DNA of 29,187 bases from a virus. The number at the start of each line of letters is the position of its first letter. The stretch's first letter is position 1. The notes under the pieces were generated by a model. It had not been told where the DNA came from. It saw nothing but the letters and a program-made list of their open reading frames with translations, and did no database searches. Positions 207 through 17,623 of the stretch are shown here, piece by piece. Both the position numbers and the translations under genes were made by a program. The stretch spans positions 1-29,187 of the IMG/VR virus record IMGVR_UViG_3300035070_001995; one strand, written 5' to 3'.

Positions 207-333
207 AAATCATCCCCGCTGTTGCCATCGCGGCGACAGAGCAAACGCCGACCGCGAGATACCAGCCGCGCCATGCCGCAACGCACGCCGCAGCCGTGAA
301 GCCGATCACCATGAAGGGGGCGTAAGCGTCCAT
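199..333 (-). CDS. 44-residue two-helix membrane protein
   Basis: Starts at the ATG at 333 (MDAYAPFMVIGF), which overlaps the stop codon of the beta-helix gene by one base (TGATG). A longer reading in the same frame from 381 would run into the spike gene and is less likely. Nearly the whole protein is hydrophobic: residues about 7-20 and 24-42 could each span a membrane, with an Arg-Gly turn between them. The topology would fit a small holin or accessory membrane protein, and it sits next to another membrane-type gene. The sequence alone does not prove lysis function, and I do not recognise the family. Confidence 0.6.
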   Translation of the reverse strand: MDAYAPFMVIGFTAAACVAAWRGWYLAVGVCSVAAMATAGMIYG

Positions 334-1445
334 CACGCATACACCGGGCAGGAGTTGCCGGGCGCGGGCTTCATGATCCACGTTCCCGAGGGCAGGATAT
401 AGGTATGGGCGACGTTGTTCGTCACCGTCCAGTTCGGGGAGTTGGTGACGCGGATCGACGGGTATTTCCCCCAGACTTTATCCGTGTGGGTGCAGTTGTT
501 GCCGTCGATCAGCAGCCCATCGACGTTGTTGAACGAAACCCCGAGCGTCGAAGTCGTCTCGACCGTGTTGCCCGTGACGTTCACACCGGCATAAGGGCCA
601 TTATGGCCACAGATGCCCTGCAGGTGCGTCCTGAGCGCCGGATTGATATTCTGTGTCCGTTCGCGGATCGTGTTGCCGGTGATGGTCAGGCCCGAAAGCA
701 GGCCGGAAGTCTTGAAAACCTGAATGCCGTCAGGGTGATCCTCGTTGATCTTCACGCGGTCGGTGATGATGTTGCCGATGGCAGACGAATTGTCTTCGCA
801 CAGCCGCGCGCCGTCGTCCGAGAAGCCGTAAACCACGCTGTTCAGGATTTGGTTTTCCTTCCCGGCCATCATGTAGCCCATCTGCACGCCGATGGCCCTG
901 CAGCCCGTCACGGTCACACGCGGGGCCTCTGACCACAGCGCGCCCATGCGCCAATCGGTCCAGTCCTGGAAGGTCCAGTTGACCCAATCCTGCGCGTCGA
1001 TCCGGCCTTGCATCTGGACGTCGTCAAACACCAGATCGGAGCAGTTCCGGTCGATTGTGATATTGAAGCCCTTCACCTTCGGGTCGATGATCGGCTGCGT
1101 CGTCGGGTGAACGAGAAAGCTGCGGAAGGTCAGGCCGGAACAGGACTTGATTTTAAGGGCGTCGAAATGGGCCGAGCCTTCGATGGTGACTTGCTTGCGG
1201 ATGTTGCTGATGGTCAGCGCGCCGAATTCCCCGCCGTCCGCGAGGCCGATGGTATCCCCGTCAACGGCGGATGCCAGCTTGGCGAGCAGGTCTTGCCCGT
1301 CCACCGCGACCTTGCCGCCGATGATGGCAGGCGCGGGGACGGGATCAGCAGGCGATGTGTCAACCGGCGCAGGCTCAACGGGAACCGGTTCGACCGGCGC
1401 GTCGTATTTGGCGATCAGGGCTTTCAGGTCGTCGAGTAGGGTCAT
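333..1445 (-). CDS. Right-handed beta-helix tail spike-like protein
   Basis: A 370-residue protein starting at the ATG at 1445 (MTLLDDLKAL), with GAAAGG upstream as ribosome binding site. The frame stays open to 1643, but that extension lies inside the next gene and reads as low-quality sequence. The first 16 residues are followed by a Pro/Val-rich linker (about 17-40, repeats of PVEP/PVDT type) and then by a series of short beta-strand rungs rich in N, G, T and V. Examples are VTGNTVETTS, LLIDGNNCTH and ITGNTIRERT, typical of pectate-lyase-like parallel beta-helices. In podoviruses such proteins are tail spikes that bind or cut surface polysaccharide. No catalytic residues can be assigned by eye, so depolymerase activity is open. 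It is the downstream partner of the tail fibre gene. Confidence 0.75.
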   Translation of the reverse strand: MTLLDDLKALIAKYDAPVEPVPVEPAPVDTSPADPVPAPAIIGGKVAVDGQDLLAKLASAVDGDTIGLADGGEFGALTISNIRKQVTIEGSAHFDALKIKSCSGLTFRSFLVHPTTQPIIDPKVKGFNITIDRNCSDLVFDDVQMQGRIDAQDWVNWTFQDWTDWRMGALWSEAPRVTVTGCRAIGVQMGYMMAGKENQILNSVVYGFSDDGARLCEDNSSAIGNIITDRVKINEDHPDGIQVFKTSGLLSGLTITGNTIRERTQNINPALRTHLQGICGHNGPYAGVNVTGNTVETTSTLGVSFNNVDGLLIDGNNCTHTDKVWGKYPSIRVTNSPNWTVTNNVAHTYILPSGTWIMKPAPGNSCPVYA

Positions 1446-1456
1446 GTTCTGGCCTT

Positions 1457-1924
1457 TCAGAGGCTTGCGGCGTCGGTGAAAAAGGCGTCCATCTGTTCCG
1501 GCGTCCATTGCAGATAGGCCCGCATGGCTTCCATGATCGGATGCGCGCGGTGGATTTCCGTCGCCGCAGCCCACACGATCTGGGCGTCGGCCACGTCGAT
1601 GCCAGGCATGGATGACAGGGCAGCGGTGAATGCCGCAGGCCATCCGCCCTTGGCCGCGTCAATCGCATCCGCCGGGCTGAGAAGCGCGTAGCCCTTGGCC
1701 GCGAGGCAGAATTGCGTCCGCGTCACATGGGCAGGCACAACCGGCGCAGGGGCGACATATACCCATTGCCCGCCCTGCCAGTCGTGGTCGCGGGACGGTC
1801 TGTCAGGGGCGATTTCCCACGCCACACCGGCAGGAATATCCTTCGCCGCAACTTCCTCGATGGTCACGCCCGGCGCGGGGTAGACGACATGCAGGGCGGG
1901 GTTGTGGTAGACGATGCAGGCCAT
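1457..1924 (-). CDS. Hypothetical protein between tail fibre and spike
   Basis: A 155-residue protein starting MACIVYHNPALHVVYPAPG at the ATG at 1924, three bases after the stop of the tail fibre gene and 11 bases before the spike gene. The N-terminal half holds short beta-type stretches and a Pro/Val/Ala linker (YVAPAPVVPAH). The C-terminal half looks helical (FCLAAKGYALL, PIMEAMRAYLQWTPEQMDAF). Similar small proteins lie next to tail fibres in many alphaproteobacterial phages and prophages, where they may help fibre assembly or form a fibre tip. I cannot assign a named family, so the tail role rests on position alone. Confidence 0.7.
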   Translation of the reverse strand: MACIVYHNPALHVVYPAPGVTIEEVAAKDIPAGVAWEIAPDRPSRDHDWQGGQWVYVAPAPVVPAHVTRTQFCLAAKGYALLSPADAIDAAKGGWPAAFTAALSSMPGIDVADAQIVWAAATEIHRAHPIMEAMRAYLQWTPEQMDAFFTDAASL

Positions 1925-1927
1925 GGA

Positions 1928-2908
1928 TTACCTCAGGACGATGACGGAGACATAATCGGTGTCGTATTCCGTGGTGCCGACGCCAACGGTGATCGTGACG
2001 CTTCCGGCGAGGCGGGCCGTCACGTCCCATCCGGTATGGGAACCTGCAACGCCTTCCGACGACGCACCGCAAACGGCGAAGTTCGCGTCGGCCATCGCCG
2101 TCGTGAAGTTGATCTTGAAATCCCCCACGCCGTTATCGGTGATGCTGGATACGTTGCCGCTCGCCAATATCGTCGGCGTTCCCGTCGAGGCGTTGAACGT
2201 CACCCATGCGCGCGGGGCGTAGATCGGGGCCGAGCCGGACGCGTTGAGCATCGACGCGATGTTCCCGGAGTCCGTCATCTGCACCCACGCCGTCCACGAT
2301 CCGCCCGTGCGAACCCTGCGCCATGTGCTGGCCCCGGTGGTCTTGGCCGCGATCTGCGCAATTTCCGTGCCGTTCGGGGCCAGCACGAGCATTTCGAAGA
2401 ACCCGGCTTCCGGCAGGTTCGCGCAAGAACTCTGCAGGCGGTAAAACCCGCTGGCGGTGCAGTTGTTCGCGTCCGCCGTCTGGATGGTCGATGTGTTGTT
2501 GACGTTGTCACCCACGGCCAGAGTTGCCCGCATGTCCGCGACCGTCGCGTCGTCGAGAAGCCCGCGCGCCGCCGCCGTCAGGCTTGCCACGGCATAGGTA
2601 TCCGCCGCCGTGGTGTAGATCATCTTGTCGGCCGCAGTCGTCAGACCGGCAATGGAGGCAAGCCCGGCGTCGTAAGCCTGCACGTCAGTGCCGATGGCAA
2701 GGCCGAGGGCCGTCCGCGCGGCAGAAGCCGTCGTTGCCCCCGTGCCCCCGGCGACGATGGGGCGCGCGACGTTCGCATCCGCCTCAAGATCGGCCAGAGG
2801 GCCATTGATGTCGGACGCGTCCGACATGTCGCCGTTCGCTACGGTTGACCCCGCTGGAAGGGAATATACCCCTGAGCCGTTCCTCGATATGGTAGCCTCC
2901 CTGTCCAA
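1928..2908 (-). CDS. Tail fibre protein with pyocin-knob-like domain
   Basis: A 326-residue protein. The best start is a TTG at 2908 because the opening MDREATISRNGSGVYSLPAG matches the usual beginning of podovirus fibre proteins; a GGGAAG stretch lies a few bases upstream. Residues 49-70 carry the fibre motif PIVAGGTGATTASAARTALG, and 80-120 hold fibre-type text (AYDAGLASIAGLTTAADKMI). About 138-211 resembles a pyocin-knob module (GFYRLQSSCANLPEAGFFEM, then RRVRTGGSWTAWVQM). The C-terminal 100 residues form a beta-rich tip ending at VIVLR. It is expected to trimerise and contact the host surface. Nothing shows which receptor it binds. Confidence 0.85.
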   Translation of the reverse strand: MDREATISRNGSGVYSLPAGSTVANGDMSDASDINGPLADLEADANVARPIVAGGTGATTASAARTALGLAIGTDVQAYDAGLASIAGLTTAADKMIYTTAADTYAVASLTAAARGLLDDATVADMRATLAVGDNVNNTSTIQTADANNCTASGFYRLQSSCANLPEAGFFEMLVLAPNGTEIAQIAAKTTGASTWRRVRTGGSWTAWVQMTDSGNIASMLNASGSAPIYAPRAWVTFNASTGTPTILASGNVSSITDNGVGDFKINFTTAMADANFAVCGASSEGVAGSHTGWDVTARLAGSVTITVGVGTTEYDTDYVSVIVLR

Positions 2909-7390: not shown

Positions 7391-7840
7391 CTACCTCTTG
7401 TGAAATCTTGACGCCCGCCAGTCATCGTCTGACAGCGTCATCAGGCATTCGGCCTCGTCTCGGCCACGCAAGCGGGGGATGACGTATTCGCGGTAGCCAT
7501 AGGCCAGCGCTATACGCCGCATCCGATGGTTCCTTTCGGAAACCTGCAGGGCTGCCAACTGGCACCCGGCATCGTCAAAAACATACGCGTGCATCGCTTT
7601 CAGGATGGGTCTGGAAAGCCACCCGTCCGACCCGGCAGCCGACATGCACATGACCCCAGCTTCGGGGTTCCAGTCGTGGAAAACTACGGCCCCGACCGTC
7701 TCTTCCCTGAACACCCGAAGGGCTACGCAGGCATCCCATCCGCGCCCGCACCCCGGTATTCTGTCGGAAATCCACTGCGCGACGGCCCGTGATCTTGGGT
7801 CGGTTGCGCGGTAAAACTCATAGCGCAGCGGCGGCTTCAT
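7391..7840 (-). CDS. GNAT-like acetyltransferase fold protein in the tail operon
   Basis: A 149-residue protein starting MKPPLRYEFYRATDPRSRAV at 7840, overlapping the 3' end of the nozzle gene by 23 bases. The order of elements fits a GNAT fold. There is an N-terminal helix, a strand (ACVALRVFREETVGAVVFHD) ending in an acidic loop, a central strand-helix unit (GWLSRPILKAMHAYVFDDAG), a strand with LAALQVSERNHRMRRIALAY and the closing YGYREYVIPRL. The usual Q/RxxGxG/A acetyl-CoA loop is not clear, so activity is uncertain. GNAT-like genes at this position occur in other podoviruses. It may be a virion component or modify a host or phage protein; neither can be read from the sequence. Confidence 0.65.
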   Translation of the reverse strand: MKPPLRYEFYRATDPRSRAVAQWISDRIPGCGRGWDACVALRVFREETVGAVVFHDWNPEAGVMCMSAAGSDGWLSRPILKAMHAYVFDDAGCQLAALQVSERNHRMRRIALAYGYREYVIPRLRGRDEAECLMTLSDDDWRASRFHKR

Positions 7841-11407: not shown

Positions 11408-12391
11408 TTATGCCGCGTCGAACAGGACGCCTTGCAGCGACCGGTTGGTGCAGACCATGTTCCCCATCCAGTAGAGCGGGATCACTATCGCATCCTGGTT
11501 GATGGGCTTCTTCTCCTCGTCCATCGTCCACTGCGCATCCGGGTGTTGCACCAGATACAGGTAGTCGGTGTTGAGGAAGTAGGCTTTTTCAGCCGTGGTC
11601 GAGAAGTTGGTGTTGTCATCGAAGATGACGTCCGCGTTCTTGAACTTCAGGCTGTTGAAGCCCGCCTTCGCCATGTCGGCGTCGGCGTATCGCTGCAGTT
11701 GCTGCTCGCCCAGTTCGTAAAGCGCATAGAAGTCATGCGACATCACGATCAGGTCGGGCTTGTCGGACGCACGCACCAGCGACAGCCAGAGCGCGTTCAT
11801 GTCGGCCTTCATGCTGGCGGCGTTCGTGGTGGACGGCGAGGCAGCGAGGTTCGTGCCCGTCATTTCCTTGAACTGGTTGCGCCAGAAGGTCCACGTTGCC
11901 GAGTCGATCCCGCCGACCGTCCCCTGACCGTTGGTCTGGATGATGTTGGCGAGGCCGTTGATCTGGTTGGACAGCGCGCCGTCCGAGTAGATATCGACCG
12001 CGAAGAAGTTCGCCGCCGAACGCATGGCGTTCTTCTTGCGCGATTTGACCAGATCAATCATCGCCTGCTTGCCCGAGTTCAGGCGCAGTTCGCGGCCCGA
12101 GGCGGTGACGTGCATGGCGATCTGCTGCAGCGGGTACTTGGCCGAGGTCAGCACGTCCGAGGCGGAGGTGTTGAGGCTTTCATACCCGGTGTAGCGTTGG
12201 GTCGTGCCGTTGTCGGCATAATCCAGGGGCTCCTGGATTTCATAGCCGCCGCTGAACGACTTGATGTTGCCCTTCTTCTTCATGCGATTGAGAAGAGCGT
12301 TGTTGTTGCTCACGTTGTCCGTGACTTCCGTCCCCGAGTTGCGAAGGGTGGTCGTCACCAGTTCCGTGAACACGGTAGAGGGCGTAGCCAT
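11408..12391 (-). CDS. Major capsid protein
   Basis: A 327-residue protein starting MATPSTVFTELVTTTLRNSG. The opening VTTTLRNSGTEVTDNVSNNN and the block IKSFSGGYEIQEPLDYADNG match a common podovirus major capsid family with the HK97 fold. Later text such as DLIVMSHDFYALYELGEQQL, TEKAYFLNTDYLYLVQHPDA and the closing MGNMVCTNRSLQGVLFDA also fits. It forms the icosahedral shell. It lies directly after the scaffold gene (12 bases) and before the decoration-like gene, the classical order. Length is normal for the family and no damage is visible. Confidence 0.9.
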   Translation of the reverse strand: MATPSTVFTELVTTTLRNSGTEVTDNVSNNNALLNRMKKKGNIKSFSGGYEIQEPLDYADNGTTQRYTGYESLNTSASDVLTSAKYPLQQIAMHVTASGRELRLNSGKQAMIDLVKSRKKNAMRSAANFFAVDIYSDGALSNQINGLANIIQTNGQGTVGGIDSATWTFWRNQFKEMTGTNLAASPSTTNAASMKADMNALWLSLVRASDKPDLIVMSHDFYALYELGEQQLQRYADADMAKAGFNSLKFKNADVIFDDNTNFSTTAEKAYFLNTDYLYLVQHPDAQWTMDEEKKPINQDAIVIPLYWMGNMVCTNRSLQGVLFDAA

Positions 12392-12403: not shown

Positions 12404-13378
12404 TTATTTCCTGTGGGCGCGGTCGAAGGCTGCCGAAAGGACTTCATCCTCGGTCATCACCCGGGTTGCCCCGCTCGCCGTTGCCCGAACGTTTACGGAT
12501 TTGGCTTTCAACGCTGCTTCGGTCTTAGGGTCGGGTTGGGCGGCTGTTGCAGCGGCCTGCGCCTGAGCCTTCACGTCTGGCAGGTAGATCGTCAGTGCAG
12601 CATCGTAGGCAGCCGCGAGCACGTCCTTGGCGGAGGCGTTCTGGCCGAGTTTTTCGCGCATGATCGGCACAAAGGACGGAATGTGGTTCTCCACTTCCGC
12701 CCAATGCTCCGCACCCTGCGCGAATGCGGTGACTTCGTCGATGATCTGCCTTTCGGCCGACACCGCCGACACCTGCGACCGGACATATTCCGGGTCGGAA
12801 ACGCGCTGTAGCTGCTGTTTCAGCGCGCTTATCTCGTTTTGCAGGGCGATTGCCTGCGATGCGTCTTGCGGCGCGTCCCCGAGGGCCTGCCGAAGCGCGT
12901 TTTCCATGCCATGCTTCTTTGCCAGCCCGAGAAGCGTCTCGACCGGCTTTTCCGCGAAGTCGCGCGACACCTTTGCCAGCGACATGACTTCCGCCGCGAC
13001 CTGCTCCGGCCGCATATTGGCCAGATTGGGCATTTCCCGCGCCGCCTGCGCCAGAACGTCCCTGATCGGCCCGAGGCCGTTCACGAAACGGGTCTGTTCC
13101 GCCAGCTTGCGCGACATTTCGCGGTGCGAATTGGTGACGGCTTCCCGCGCTTCCGGCGTCAGGGATGCCCATGCCGTTTTCACCCCGGCCGGAAGGTCGG
13201 TCGGCGCCGGTTCCTGCTCCGGCTCCTGGGGCTGTTCCGGCGCGGCTTCCGCCTCAGTGGCCGGTTGTTCGGCGTCTTCGATGGGGTCGTCGGCCGTGAT
13301 CCGGTCAAAAGCGGCGGAAAGATCGGCGTCCGGCATGGCTTCATCAGCCACGAGCGCTGGCGCGGTCGTGTCGGTCAT
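12404..13378 (-). CDS. Capsid scaffolding protein
   Basis: A 324-residue protein starting MTDTTAPALVADEAMPDADL. The first 65 residues are acidic and rich in Glu, Pro and Ala (EQPATEAEAAPEQPQEPEQE). The middle is helical with Gln and Arg (TNSHREMSRKLAEQTRFVNG, ALQNEISALKQQLQRVSDPE, a likely coiled coil near 180-195). The end is Ala-rich and then basic (EDEVLSAAFDRAHRK). This profile and the place immediately before the major capsid gene are typical of podovirus scaffolds, which guide shell assembly and then leave. The basic C-terminal helix would be the capsid-binding part, by analogy with P22-type scaffolds. Confidence 0.8.
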   Translation of the reverse strand: MTDTTAPALVADEAMPDADLSAAFDRITADDPIEDAEQPATEAEAAPEQPQEPEQEPAPTDLPAGVKTAWASLTPEAREAVTNSHREMSRKLAEQTRFVNGLGPIRDVLAQAAREMPNLANMRPEQVAAEVMSLAKVSRDFAEKPVETLLGLAKKHGMENALRQALGDAPQDASQAIALQNEISALKQQLQRVSDPEYVRSQVSAVSAERQIIDEVTAFAQGAEHWAEVENHIPSFVPIMREKLGQNASAKDVLAAAYDAALTIYLPDVKAQAQAAATAAQPDPKTEAALKAKSVNVRATASGATRVMTEDEVLSAAFDRAHRK

Positions 13379-13394: not shown

Positions 13395-13682
13395 TTACCC
13401 GAGAAGGTGTTGAAGCCCGTGCTTCTTGGCGAAGGCTTCGTTTTTCAGACGCCCGCCCGTGGGCGACGGCAGGTCGTTCGCGTCAACGCAGTTGTTTTTT
13501 TCAAGGTCATACCGGCGCGCCCGGCGTCCCTCGATCATGCTTCCGTCAACCGGGCTACGATAGGCCGGAAGATCGGACCACACGCGCGGCGTGACCGGCT
13601 GCCACGGGCCGGAAACCATCGGTTCACGCGTCACCTTGTCCACCATGACCCCGAGGGCCTTGTCATACACATAGATTGCCAT
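13395..13682 (-). CDS. Small conserved protein before the scaffold
   Basis: A 95-residue protein starting MAIYVYDKALGVMVDKVTRE at the ATG at 13682, one base after the stop of the repeat protein gene (TGACATG). A longer version from 13748 would lie inside that gene and reads as Ser/Arg shadow. It has a Lys/Arg/Asn/Asp-rich middle (SMIEGRRARRYDLEKNNCVD) and ends KNEAFAKKHGLQHLLG. Similar short proteins with this YVYDK..G.MVDK.TREPM opening occur next to the scaffold genes of other podoviruses. No function is established and no enzyme motif is visible. It may be a minor head component. Confidence 0.7.
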   Translation of the reverse strand: MAIYVYDKALGVMVDKVTREPMVSGPWQPVTPRVWSDLPAYRSPVDGSMIEGRRARRYDLEKNNCVDANDLPSPTGGRLKNEAFAKKHGLQHLLG

Positions 13683-13683
13683 G

Positions 13684-15141
13684 TCATGCCGCCAGCAAGA
13701 GAGCCGTGATTTCATCGTCAAGAAGCTGCTGCGCGAGGATGGCCGCATTCAGGGCATCAAGCGCCGCTTCCCGTTCCGCCAGCGCCCGCCGCAACAGCCG
13801 GACGTCGTCGCGCCTCGGGGCTTCCTGCCTGCCCAGCGCCGCAATGACGCGGTCCGATATGCGCCGCAGATCTGCCCGGCGCTTCGGAGGGGCCGTTTCC
13901 GCGATTTCCTCGACCGCCTCCTCTACGTCGTCCAGATCGACGACATTGCCGTCGCGGTCCACATACTTGATCGGTAGCCAGCCGCCCGGCTGTTCCTGCG
14001 TTCCGGTGGACAGGACCACATCCGGAAGGGCTGCGGTGTATTCCAGCGTGTCGAGCGCGACCGTCGCGCTTGCGGCAACGCCCACATCCGGCAGGGCCGT
14101 CGAATAGGCAAGTGCGTCCAGTGCAACCGGCGTTCCGACCGTGGCCGTCGCATCCGGCAGGCTTGCCGAATAGGACAGAGCATCGAGCGCAACCGTTGTG
14201 CCCGTCGAAACGCTCACATCCGGCAGGGACGCGGCGTAGGACAGGCTGTCGAGCGCCACAACGGCCGGGACCGCCAGCGTCATATCCGGCAGGCTGGCGG
14301 TATAGCCGAGGCTATCCAGCGCGACGGGCGTATTGACCGCCGCTGTAAGGTCTGGAAGCGCCTCGGAATATGCCAGCGTGTCGAATGCGACCGGCGTATC
14401 GACCTGCGCCGTCAGGCTGTTGACCGTCTCCGTATATGCCAGCGTGTCGAGATTGACCGACGTGCCGCTTGCCGTGGCGACGTTGATTTCAACCCAGGCG
14501 ACATGCGCCCGGCCGGTGTCCGTCCAGTTGTAGGTGTCGGTTGTTGATCCTGCCGTGGCTACGACATGGTAGCCATAGGCGCAGGTAATGTCCGACGTGT
14601 CCCCGGTGCCGGTGTTCGCCGCAGAAATCAGCGTCCCGCCCGTCATGCTGAATTCGGACGTGGTGACGGTTTCCCGCACGCCCAACATGGACAGAAGGAC
14701 GTTGTTATCCGCCGTCGTCGTGCGCGTGAATGCCTGCGTTGCCACATCCGAGGAATAGGACGTGGATACGCCGCGCCCGGCTACCGGCGTCCCGGTATCA
14801 TACCCGGAAATCACCCACACCAGAGTCTGGCAGCCCCGGCCCGCGCCGCCAAGATCGACCGCGACCGCAGGCGTTCCGGTCGGCGGCGACGTGACTTCAT
14901 AAACCGCGACCGCGAAGTCAATCCCGGCATTGAAGCCCGTCGCCGTGGGCGTCAGCGCCGACCCGCCGCCGAGCGTTACCGTCCAGTTCGCCGGGTCTTC
15001 AAGCGCGTTGGCATCCCACGCCTGGACCTTGATGATGACCAGATCGGATGACGATCCGACCGTCGCGTTACCGGAGTAGTTCTGGACGTTGCTTGTCGAG
15101 TTGATGACAAGCTGTGGCGACGTGTGGCCGGAGATAGCCAT
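13684..15141 (-). CDS. Head-region protein with seven 22-residue repeats and coiled-coil end
   Basis: A 485-residue protein starting MAISGHTSPQLVINSTSNVQ, three bases after the 15145 gene. Residues 1-225 form a beta-rich, jelly-roll-like domain (LVIIKVQAWDANALEDPANW, LVWVISGYDTGTPVAGRG, RAHVAWVEINVATAS). Residues 228-381 are seven tandem repeats of exactly 22 residues with consensus VALDxLxYxxxLPD. After a short linker (GGWLPIKYVDRDGNVVDLDD) the last 80 residues are charged helices with a coiled-coil look (RRALAEREAALDALNAAILA). Its place between portal and scaffold suggests a virion head fibre or outer appendage. The repeats could form a stalk whose length depends on copy number. The repeat family is not known to me. 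Confidence 0.75.
   Translation of the reverse strand: MAISGHTSPQLVINSTSNVQNYSGNATVGSSSDLVIIKVQAWDANALEDPANWTVTLGGGSALTPTATGFNAGIDFAVAVYEVTSPPTGTPAVAVDLGGAGRGCQTLVWVISGYDTGTPVAGRGVSTSYSSDVATQAFTRTTTADNNVLLSMLGVRETVTTSEFSMTGGTLISAANTGTGDTSDITCAYGYHVVATAGSTTDTYNWTDTGRAHVAWVEINVATASGTSVNLDTLAYTETVNSLTAQVDTPVAFDTLAYSEALPDLTAAVNTPVALDSLGYTASLPDMTLAVPAVVALDSLSYAASLPDVSVSTGTTVALDALSYSASLPDATATVGTPVALDALAYSTALPDVGVAASATVALDTLEYTAALPDVVLSTGTQEQPGGWLPIKYVDRDGNVVDLDDVEEAVEEIAETAPPKRRADLRRISDRVIAALGRQEAPRRDDVRLLRRALAEREAALDALNAAILAQQLLDDEITALLLAA
13999..14460 (-). repeat. Seven tandem 66-bp coding repeats
   Basis: Seven in-frame units of 66 bases encode residues 228-381 of the protein above. On the plus strand most units show CATCCGGCAGG near one end and a TCGAGCGC or TCCAGCGC block in the middle. 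The outer copy (228-249) is the most diverged at the protein level and has lost LPD. Third-base differences between units show they are old repeats under protein-level selection, not a fresh duplication. Confidence 0.9.
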
Positions 15142-15144
15142 CTA

Positions 15145-15594
15145 TCAGGTGACGGTAAACAGCCCGTTGGCGTTCAGCGTGATCGTCGCCGTCTGCCCCG
15201 TGGTCAGCGTGATTGCCGAGCCGTGATCCCACACCCCTACCAGCGGATCGGCGGGCGAAGTCGGCGTGTCGTCATAGACGTAGATATACCGGAAGGTCGC
15301 AATCGAACCGCCCGAGGCCGTGATGGTGAAGTCGCCCGCGTCAAACTTCGTCACCCCGCCCGTCTCGGCCCAGGTCACGCTTTCCAGCGTCCGGTCCACG
15401 GTCAGCGTGTCGGTGTAGTTGGTGTAGGAAATCTGCGTCACGTTCGCCAGAACCCCGTTGCCGGTGGCCGTGGGGTTGCTCGCCTCGGATGCCGGTGCGG
15501 TGTTCGACAATGCGACCTTGAACGTGTCAGACGACATGTTCACGACCGTGCCGAGGTTCTCGATCCAGTCGGCAATCTTGCTGCCAGTGGCCAT
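15145..15594 (-). CDS. Small beta-rich virion-type protein
   Basis: A 149-residue protein starting MATGSKIADWIENLGTVVNM, 10 bases after the portal stop and three bases before the repeat protein. It opens with a short helix and continues as beta-sheet text rich in Thr, Ala and Val (DTFKVALSNTAPASEASNPT, LESVTWAETGGVTKFDAGDF, RYIYVYDDTPTSPADPLVGV). Proteins of this length and style follow portal genes in many alphaproteobacterial podoviruses and prophages and are annotated only as phage proteins. A minor head or decoration role is likely from its place. I see no motif that proves it. Confidence 0.7.
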   Translation of the reverse strand: MATGSKIADWIENLGTVVNMSSDTFKVALSNTAPASEASNPTATGNGVLANVTQISYTNYTDTLTVDRTLESVTWAETGGVTKFDAGDFTITASGGSIATFRYIYVYDDTPTSPADPLVGVWDHGSAITLTTGQTATITLNANGLFTVT

Positions 15595-15604
15595 GTTTCA
15601 GCCC

Positions 15605-17623
15605 TCAGTTGAGAATGGTTTCGACGCCGACGGGCCTGCCGTTCGCGTCCTTGATCACCCGTTTCGGCGCGGTCATGGCCGCGACAATCGACGAATTGCC
15701 CTGCTGCAGAGCCATGCCGAGTTGCTGGATCAGACCCGCAAGCGCCTGATTTCCGCCCCGGATTTCCTCCAGGATCGGCACGAAAGCCTGTTGCACCATG
15801 CCCGCAAGCACGTTCTGACCCTGTGCCATCTGCCCGGCCGCTTCATCCGAACGGGCCTGCATGTCGGCCCGCCGCGACTCCACGTCCAGACCGAACCGCG
15901 CTTTGTCCAGGTCCAGCTTTTCCTTGTCGAGTTGCACCTTCGCCGCCTCGACCTGGCCCTTCATCTGCAGTTCGGCCTGTTTCAGGCCCATTTCGGCCTG
16001 TTTCGACTGCATTTCAGCCTGCTTTGCCTCGGCCTCGGGGTTCGGACGCGGCTGCGAGGCGGCTTGCGCTGCCATGTCCGCGAATTTCTCAAGCGCGTCT
16101 TCGGCCTGTTTCCCAAGGTTGAATTGCCGCGAAAACGCCGCATACATTTCCACCAGCGGACCAGCCGCTTCCGGGGCCTGCCCGACAATCGGGGCCATCG
16201 TCGAGAAGAATTGCGCCGTGCCCTGCAGGAATTCGGCCATTTCCTGACGGCTCCGGGTCAGGTCTGCCCTGACCGTGCTGTCGCTTTCGACGTTGATCCG
16301 GTAGTGATCGAGAGGCCTTTGCAGAAGCGCCTGCGTCTGCGGGTCAATCTCAATCCCAGCCATGCTTTGCAGCGTCGGGATGGTGAAATGGCGGCTGATG
16401 ATTTCCGCCGCGATGACGAAAATATCCCGCACCTGCCGTTCAATGAGACGCTGCATCTTCTTGATGCGAAGCGCGCCCCATTGCGTCTTGATCTGCTGCG
16501 CCGTGGCGGTTTCGCCCGCGTTGCCCTGCCCCCGGATGATGTCGCTGATGCCGGTAATCTCGTAGATCGCCTGCTTGGTTTGCTCGCGTTGCAGGTAGAG
16601 CTGCTGCAGCACGGCAATTGCCTTGTCCACCGGCCACCACATGACGGCCTTTTCCAGCCCGCCAGCCGCCACGAGGTTCTCGATATTGCCGACCGTGATC
16701 AGTTCGTTGTCATCGGCCTCGGCCAGGTTCTCAATCGCCGCTGCGTCCGCCGCGATGATGCCCCGGAGTTTCAGGCCCTTCATGATGCCGTTGATGCGCC
16801 GCGTCTGGCGATCCAGTTCCTCGGCCAGCGTCTTGTATACCGTATACGGGCAGACCGGCGTGCGCTTCGACGTGCCGGTAATCGGCTGGATCGGCTCGGG
16901 CATCGGGAAAAACCCGGACAGCCCTAGCGGATCGTCCTTGATTGCCAGCACCTTCTGGCTATCGCGGTCCACGAAATAGACGCGGCCAGACGACTTGCAC
17001 CAGATTTCCCAGACAGCGCGGTCATCGTCGCCGTCCAAGGTCGCTTCCGGCTGCGCCTCGGCCAGCGTGTCATCCTCGATCCGCTCGGCCTCTTCCTTGC
17101 TGATGAAATGGCAGAACGCCACCCACGGCACATCGGACCAGCGCCGGGCTGGACCTTCGCGGTAGGCAGACCACGGCACCGCCTCGAACACCAGCCGCTC
17201 GTTTGCAACGCCGCCCGCCGTTTCGTCGGCGTCGAAACGAATGCGCACCACGCCGCGACCGGCCATGAATGCATCCTGCGCCGACCGCTCGATTTCCGCA
17301 TCAAGGCGGTTGTCGTCGATCTGCGTGGCAATCGCCCGCTCAAGGACTTCACCCGCCAGCTTGGCAGCGCCGTCCTTGTTGTTGTGGCGCGGGCGGATGT
17401 CGGGGACCGGCGTCGAGTTGTAGATCGACGGCACAATCGTCTCGACGTTGGAATGCAGGATGTTGAATTCCGGCATGTCGTTGGACGAGGTGTCGCAGAG
17501 GTAAGCCTTTTCGGCCCGCTCGGCGTCCTTGATCCACCGATCCTCGCGCTTTTCTGCGGCGGCGATGCGATCCAGCCATTTCGAGCCGATCTGCTGCAGC
17601 CCTTGGGCGGTGTATTCGGCCAT
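15605..17623 (-). CDS. Portal protein
   Basis: A 672-residue protein starting MAEYTAQGLQQIGSKWLDRI. Its ATG overlaps the stop of the large terminase (TAATG). Portal-type blocks include YLCDTSSNDMPEFNILHSNV, ETIVPSIYNSTPVPDIRPRH, RSAQDAFMAGRGVVRIRFDA and YAVYKTLAEELDRQT-like text near residue 250. The portal ring is the vertex through which DNA is packed and leaves, and it docks the terminase and the adaptor. Residues about 531-597 are a long charged helix with three exact heptads of the KQAEM type (KQAEMQSKQAEMGLKQAEL), followed by Gln-rich helices. This probably forms a C-terminal barrel or coiled coil inside the head. The length is within the range of podovirus portals. Confidence 0.88.
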   Translation of the reverse strand: MAEYTAQGLQQIGSKWLDRIAAAEKREDRWIKDAERAEKAYLCDTSSNDMPEFNILHSNVETIVPSIYNSTPVPDIRPRHNNKDGAAKLAGEVLERAIATQIDDNRLDAEIERSAQDAFMAGRGVVRIRFDADETAGGVANERLVFEAVPWSAYREGPARRWSDVPWVAFCHFISKEEAERIEDDTLAEAQPEATLDGDDDRAVWEIWCKSSGRVYFVDRDSQKVLAIKDDPLGLSGFFPMPEPIQPITGTSKRTPVCPYTVYKTLAEELDRQTRRINGIMKGLKLRGIIAADAAAIENLAEADDNELITVGNIENLVAAGGLEKAVMWWPVDKAIAVLQQLYLQREQTKQAIYEITGISDIIRGQGNAGETATAQQIKTQWGALRIKKMQRLIERQVRDIFVIAAEIISRHFTIPTLQSMAGIEIDPQTQALLQRPLDHYRINVESDSTVRADLTRSRQEMAEFLQGTAQFFSTMAPIVGQAPEAAGPLVEMYAAFSRQFNLGKQAEDALEKFADMAAQAASQPRPNPEAEAKQAEMQSKQAEMGLKQAELQMKGQVEAAKVQLDKEKLDLDKARFGLDVESRRADMQARSDEAAGQMAQGQNVLAGMVQQAFVPILEEIRGGNQALAGLIQQLGMALQQGNSSIVAAMTAPKRVIKDANGRPVGVETILN

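Follow-up and report, generated by a model that had tools for sequence, protein, structure and literature searches.

The head fibre protein gp8.5 of phage phi29 repeats helix-turn-helix motifs, and the shaft of the adenovirus fibre, a triple beta-spiral, is built of beta repeats of about 15 residues. In phage T4, the Hoc protein consists of a C-terminal capsid-binding domain joined to variable strings of beta domains (PMC10385173). Agrobacterium phage 7-7-1 bears capsid fibres to which no protein has been assigned (PMC12796354). Here we analyze a 485-aa phage protein with a tandem repeat array, for which a head fibre identity is plausible.

The window, that is, the whole stretch of DNA that was analyzed, is one complete IMG/VR record of 29,187 bases. 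Judging by its genes, which include those for a P22-like portal and an adaptor of the SU10 type, the phage is podovirus-like. The minus-strand gene order is terminase large subunit, portal, p150, repeat gene, p117, scaffold-like protein and major capsid protein, followed by a 157-aa protein, a 183-aa protein, the adaptor, a nozzle-like protein, ejection-like proteins and a tail fibre. The initial annotation placed the repeat gene between portal and scaffold, which is correct but incomplete because p150 and p117 also lie in this interval. The relevant features are the following:

15605..17623, minus strand: P22-like portal, upstream border of the variable slot (PF16510, E=1.5e-8; phrog_12082, E=7e-160)
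15145..15594, minus strand: p150, partner gene of the phrog_644 family (E=1.2e-9)
13684..15141, minus strand: whole repeat gene, 485 aa, with a beta-rich N-terminal domain, seven 22-residue repeats and a helical C-terminal domain
14458..15141, minus strand: N-terminal domain, residues 1-228, beta-rich by composition
13996..14457, minus strand: repeat array, residues 229-382
13684..13995, minus strand: C-terminal domain, residues 383-485, with the GGWLPIKYVDRDGNVVDL motif, helices and the terminal DDEITALLLAA
13690..13812, minus strand: predicted C-terminal helix, residues 444-484, heptad-like (AlphaFold pLDDT ~80-88)
13395..13682, minus strand: conserved part of p117, the slot's downstream border (alignments with homologues start at residue 23)
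12404..13378, minus strand: scaffold-like protein (position and composition; syntenic in relatives)
11408..12391, minus strand: major capsid protein (phrog_9953, E=6.5e-82)
7391-7840, minus strand: GNAT acetyltransferase-like gene (phrog_4470), between the nozzle-like and virion structural genes
1928-2908, minus strand: conventional tail fibre (phrog_24210)
1457-1924, minus strand: chaperone-like phrog_6034 protein, adjoining the tail fibre
333-1643, minus strand: right-handed beta-helix protein

The match of the portal to PF16510 scores 34.1 bits, above the cut-off of 26.1; the region of the portal gene that encodes its C-terminal coiled coil contains three 21-base repeats (15960-16021; QAEMxxKQAE). 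The longest open frame of p117 (13395-13748, minus strand) probably starts too early, as relatives align from residue 23; translation more likely begins at the ATG in 13682-13680, a single base beyond the stop of the repeat gene. No convincing family match was detected for the scaffold-like protein in Pfam or PHROGs. The phrog_24210 tail fibre and its chaperone-like neighbour at 1457-2908 rule out the 485-aa protein as the main tail fibre.

The array comprises seven contiguous units of 22 residues, in order VNLDTLAYTETVNSLTAQVDTP, VAFDTLAYSEALPDLTAAVNTP, VALDSLGYTASLPDMTLAVPAV, VALDSLSYAASLPDVSVSTGTT, VALDALSYSASLPDATATVGTP, VALDALAYSTALPDVGVAASAT and VALDTLEYTAALPDVVLSTGTQ, with the consensus VALDxLxYxxxLPDxxxxxxxx. 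V1, D4, L6 and Y8 are invariant across all seven units, and L12-P13-D14 is kept in units 2-7; unit 1 diverges, with NL replacing AL and VNS replacing LPD. Positions 16-22 are occupied by small residues and are loosely conserved. The self-match at a lag of 22 residues is 0.55, twice the best value among 2000 shuffles (0.27), and a pattern search for the repeat yielded 5 matches, with 0 expected. These tests confirm the seven exact 22-residue units reported in the initial annotation; the array it delineated (residues 228-381, 13999-14460) is the same one but was one codon out of phase, the true span being 13996-14457. The units are only 42-70% identical at the DNA level, and Tandem Repeats Finder did not report the array, which together point to an old, protein-level repeat under selection. 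Thus, judging by sequence divergence, the array is ancient, with the pattern maintained in the protein, and the DNA identity rules out a recent tandem duplication.

That the array is flanked by a beta-rich N-terminus and a coiled-coil end is also supported: the helix at residues 444-484, besides being predicted with high pLDDT, has a hydrophobic period of 3.5. The N-terminal domain (residues 1-228) has no Pfam or phage match; its residues 1-60 resemble the slot protein of the relative L102 (hhalign of single sequences, one comparison, E=0.0014). Neither the whole protein nor its repeats have a relative detectable in searches of phages, viral contigs and genome contigs, and the two weak matches among 385 genomes of the class proved, on inspection, to be distinct from the window repeat. 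In line with the earlier statement that no named repeat family is known to have this pattern, Pfam, PHROGs and NCBIfam contain no match to the repeat region, and for the whole protein they yielded no repeat, structural or enzyme family, the best being a sub-threshold rhamnosidase match (E=0.12). PDB sequences, solved fibre shafts included, gave no match at E up to 10.

AlphaFold was given the entire protein along with 11 divergent slot proteins, but its model of the window repeats is too poor to use (pLDDT 27-44; 42.7 for the whole protein). For the L102 repeats, modelled with five aligned sequences, the prediction reached pLDDT 72.5 and pTM 0.74, with each 22-residue unit contributing three strands in exact register, and can be read as a predicted beta-solenoid with one turn per unit. 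By analogy, the window repeats might adopt the same fold; the best cyclic alignment of the two unit profiles is not significant (p=0.22), with Y8 and D14 in register, and neither is the hydropathy correlation. A Foldseek search with the L102 repeat model found no solved structure at E<0.8, and the matches in a viral structure library were confined to phage proteins without a name (best E=1.2e-5) and a single protein bearing an F5/8 C-terminal domain (E=2.3e-3).

Relatives of the phage were selected by portal and capsid from viral contigs and genomes, yielding 95 distinct cases (individual loci are denoted by L numbers). The nearest genome matches by these two proteins are from Mesorhizobium, Devosia and other Rhizobiales, and the cellular genomes that contain relatives belong to Hyphomicrobiales (Mesorhizobium, Devosia). 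The portal, which in L036:5818-8156 and L041:5896-8083 is encoded in two adjacent frames (either a genuine split or an error in the sequence), and p117 are conserved across the relatives and border a variable slot that is empty (gap of no more than 60 nt) in 33 of the 95, short (61-600 nt) in 32 and multi-gene (>600 nt) in 30. Many occupied slots, including many of the multi-gene ones, contain one gene, most often the last, whose product has helices and an acidic-LLL tail at its C-terminus; some multi-gene slots lack this end, and among 940 homologues of other virion genes only 3 have the tail. The middle of the acidic-LLL genes contains from 0 to 11 units of 20-25 residues that belong to several repeat families: SYxLTG in L102 (11 units), FYxATV in L139 (5), VAVxGQSVxL in L168 and L175 (9), LTFTPTGALLGDG in L201 (~11), LxAVTNAATG in L170 (~7), SFAGVASFSAVG in L191 (~4) and LAATE in L036 (2), whereas L009, L016 and L067 have a short AFQxNAFQ leader without repeats. 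The Mesorhizobium loci L135 and L136 likewise have a repeat-free version, and L139 lies in a Hyphomicrobiales prophage. Nearly the same C-terminus is present in L201, with its repeats, and in L108, with none. In L201 (5571-6683), neighbouring 20-residue units share 90-100% DNA identity, a sign that this array may have expanded recently. Unit counts in the slot thus range from 0 in L108 through 5 in L139 and 7 in the window to 11 in L102 and ~11 in L201. Such variation of unit number and family among related phages is what a length-setting array would produce, so the comparison supports the stalk of repeat-set length originally proposed for this protein. The slots of L016 and L067 also contain tail-fibre-like SLKHKFT proteins with regions that by eye look pectate-lyase-like, and some slots instead encode proteins (L082:598-1767 and L090:5212-6513) that look, again by eye, like phage-encoded ADP-ribosyltransferases or metallopeptidase-type proteins.

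The C-terminus of the window protein contains the GG-PIKYV-RDG-VVDL motif and the LLL end shared with the slot-final proteins, and combines the three features of this family, namely, the PIKYV-RDGxxVDL motif, helices and the acidic-LLL end. The C-terminal domain matches L010 (BLASTP, E=8.7e-5) and the profile of slot-final subfamily A (E=6e-4; best shuffle, 0.05). Because a pooled profile of all slot-final subfamilies failed to recover the window protein, we assign its C-terminus to this family with moderate confidence.

A phrog_644 gene is located upstream of the repeat gene in the same slot in the window and in L102, L139, L004, L168 and L175. The pair recurs in unrelated phages. Siphovirus-like contigs encode a sister repeat protein between the major head protein and head-tail connector genes: in L221 and L222 the order is head protein gene, phrog_644, repeat protein, and connector or terminator genes, and in L223 the repeat protein is encoded next to the connector. 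In the podovirus-like L224, phrog_644 and the repeat protein precede the adaptor and nozzle genes, and in a Rhizobiales genome locus (L156:479-1471) a further repeat protein gene lies directly upstream of phrog_644. The L222 repeat protein has a lectin-like N-terminal domain (Laminin_G_3, E=5e-5, below Pfam's cut-off). The C-termini of these outgroup proteins (L221-L224 and L156) differ from those in the slot, as would be expected if this end is adapted to the type of particle. In EBPR siphovirus 2, similar repeats are found inside a large protein, gp72, with tail genes alongside. Kinship between phrog_644 and the phrog_240 'head protein' encoded by the first gene of the slot in L191 and L201 was not supported.

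The reading that we favour, with somewhat better than even confidence, is that the 485-aa protein is an optional appendage of the virion, anchored at its C-terminus, with the repeats as shaft and the N-terminus as tip. Docking on the virion, most likely at the head or neck, would be the task of the helical C-terminal domain, which includes the coiled-coil helix and the acidic-LLL segment; the shaft would consist of the seven 22-residue beta repeats, with the copy number setting its length; and the N-terminal beta domain would be displayed at the tip, where it may contact the host or surface polymers. The gene and its phrog_644 partner would occupy a dispensable, hypervariable slot in which recombination exchanges the tip, the shaft family and the shaft length while the group-specific C-terminal end is kept. 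The polarity is proposed because the C-terminal end is conserved within the phage group, and attachment to the head is favoured because of the position of the outgroup genes in the head module. In favour of the reading are the period-22 array, the conserved borders and variable content of the slot, the recurrence of this architecture with other repeat families and counts, the near restriction of the acidic-LLL end to slot genes and its match in the window protein, the phrog_644 pairing in other phages, the L102 prediction, the lectin-like domain in L222 and the separate tail fibre gene. Against it count the non-significant resemblance of the window and L102 units, the failure of the pooled C-terminal profile, the tail-fibre-like or pectate-lyase-like genes in the slots of L016 and L067, the multi-gene slots that lack the acidic-LLL end and the gp72 repeats next to tail genes.

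The main rival, which we consider unlikely but deserving of attention, is attachment to the neck or tail, the protein being an extra adhesin or a wing-like arm around the tail nozzle. The tail-fibre-like and pectate-lyase-like neighbours in L016 and L067 and the L224 cassette, which abuts the adaptor and nozzle genes, are compatible with such a site, as is the match of one phrog_644 alignment to the Bxb1 tail wing arm gp31 (PDB 9d93, E=1.6e-5). However, this match is unstable and disappeared with a second phrog_644 alignment, the cassettes of L221 to L223 reside in the head-to-connector module, and separate genes for a tail fibre and a beta-helix protein are present in the window (333-2908). 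A different objection concerns the array itself, which could be a flexible, largely unfolded spacer that holds two domains apart rather than a folded beta shaft. The low pLDDT over the window repeats and the small, loosely conserved residues at unit positions 16-22 would fit, but spacers drift in length, and units of strictly 22 residues that never vary at V, D, L and Y are better explained by a folded turn. The sister L102 array is also predicted to be folded in register; we regard a spacer as rather improbable.

The helical C-terminus and the position of the gene between portal and scaffold would also suit an assembly factor or an internal protein, such as a scaffold helper or an ejection protein, not displayed on the surface. 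Given that a third of the relatives have an empty slot and that lectin-like partners or N-terminal domains are present in relatives, the probability of such a role appears low. Slightly lower still is that of an accessory (moron) gene that alters the host or is otherwise unrelated to morphogenesis and is in the operon by chance: some slot genes do look non-structural (L082 and L090), but the C-terminal end, the partner gene and the repeats recur in structural contexts, and the 485-aa protein matches no enzyme family in Pfam, PHROGs or NCBIfam.

Beyond the appendage proposed for the window, and more tentatively, the slot could represent an undescribed, widespread class of modular appendages whose shafts consist of beta repeats of ~20-22 residues from many unrelated or extremely diverged families. 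Under this possible generalization, the shafts would be swapped between a group-specific C-terminal anchor and a lectin-like tip, the copy number would tune the reach, and the genes would occupy a dedicated portal-scaffold slot as well as head modules of other phages. The interest lies mainly in this slot-wide pattern and less in the single protein. Head and neck fibres of phages are hard to spot from sequence because the tip and shaft change quickly; the conserved slot, the partner gene and the recurring C-terminal end provide a handle for finding them in uncultivated Hyphomicrobiales phages and beyond. If the array is a shaft with one turn per unit, the copy number would amount to a length control that can be read directly from the sequence and tested, and the many natural 20-22-residue units would be a source of short beta-repeat scaffolds.

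Among described proteins, orf109 of phage 7-7-1 (JQ312117, 55312-56739; L228:10313-11740), with about five 21-residue APMADA repeats, resembles the window protein in having a beta-rich-looking N-terminus, repeats and a short C-terminus and in being encoded among structural genes, but differs in consensus and C-terminus. It is labelled structural in GenBank and is absent from the table of 24 virion proteins identified by mass spectrometry (PMC3517404); we consider it a capsid-fibre candidate as a lead only. The SYxLTG repeat proteins (L102, L221-L224, MW202742 and EBPR siphovirus 2 gp72), a family without a name in Pfam, PHROGs or NCBIfam, share with the window protein the 22-residue pitch, the phrog_644 neighbour and, in the case of L102, the same slot, but have a different consensus, with unit profiles that do not align significantly (p=0.22). 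The tail wing arm gp31 of Bxb1 is a possible distant relative of p150, not of the repeat protein. The fibres of phi29 and adenovirus are repeat-built stalks on a capsid, as proposed here, but the window protein has no sequence match to them in the PDB. By analogy, the closest functional precedent is Hoc of T4. Its Ig-like domains are far longer than the 22-residue units of the window, and the window protein, having no Ig or Hoc family match in Pfam, NCBIfam or PHROGs, is not a Hoc by sequence; yet Hoc and Hoc-like head fibres are dispensable head appendages that follow the same design logic as we infer for the window protein.
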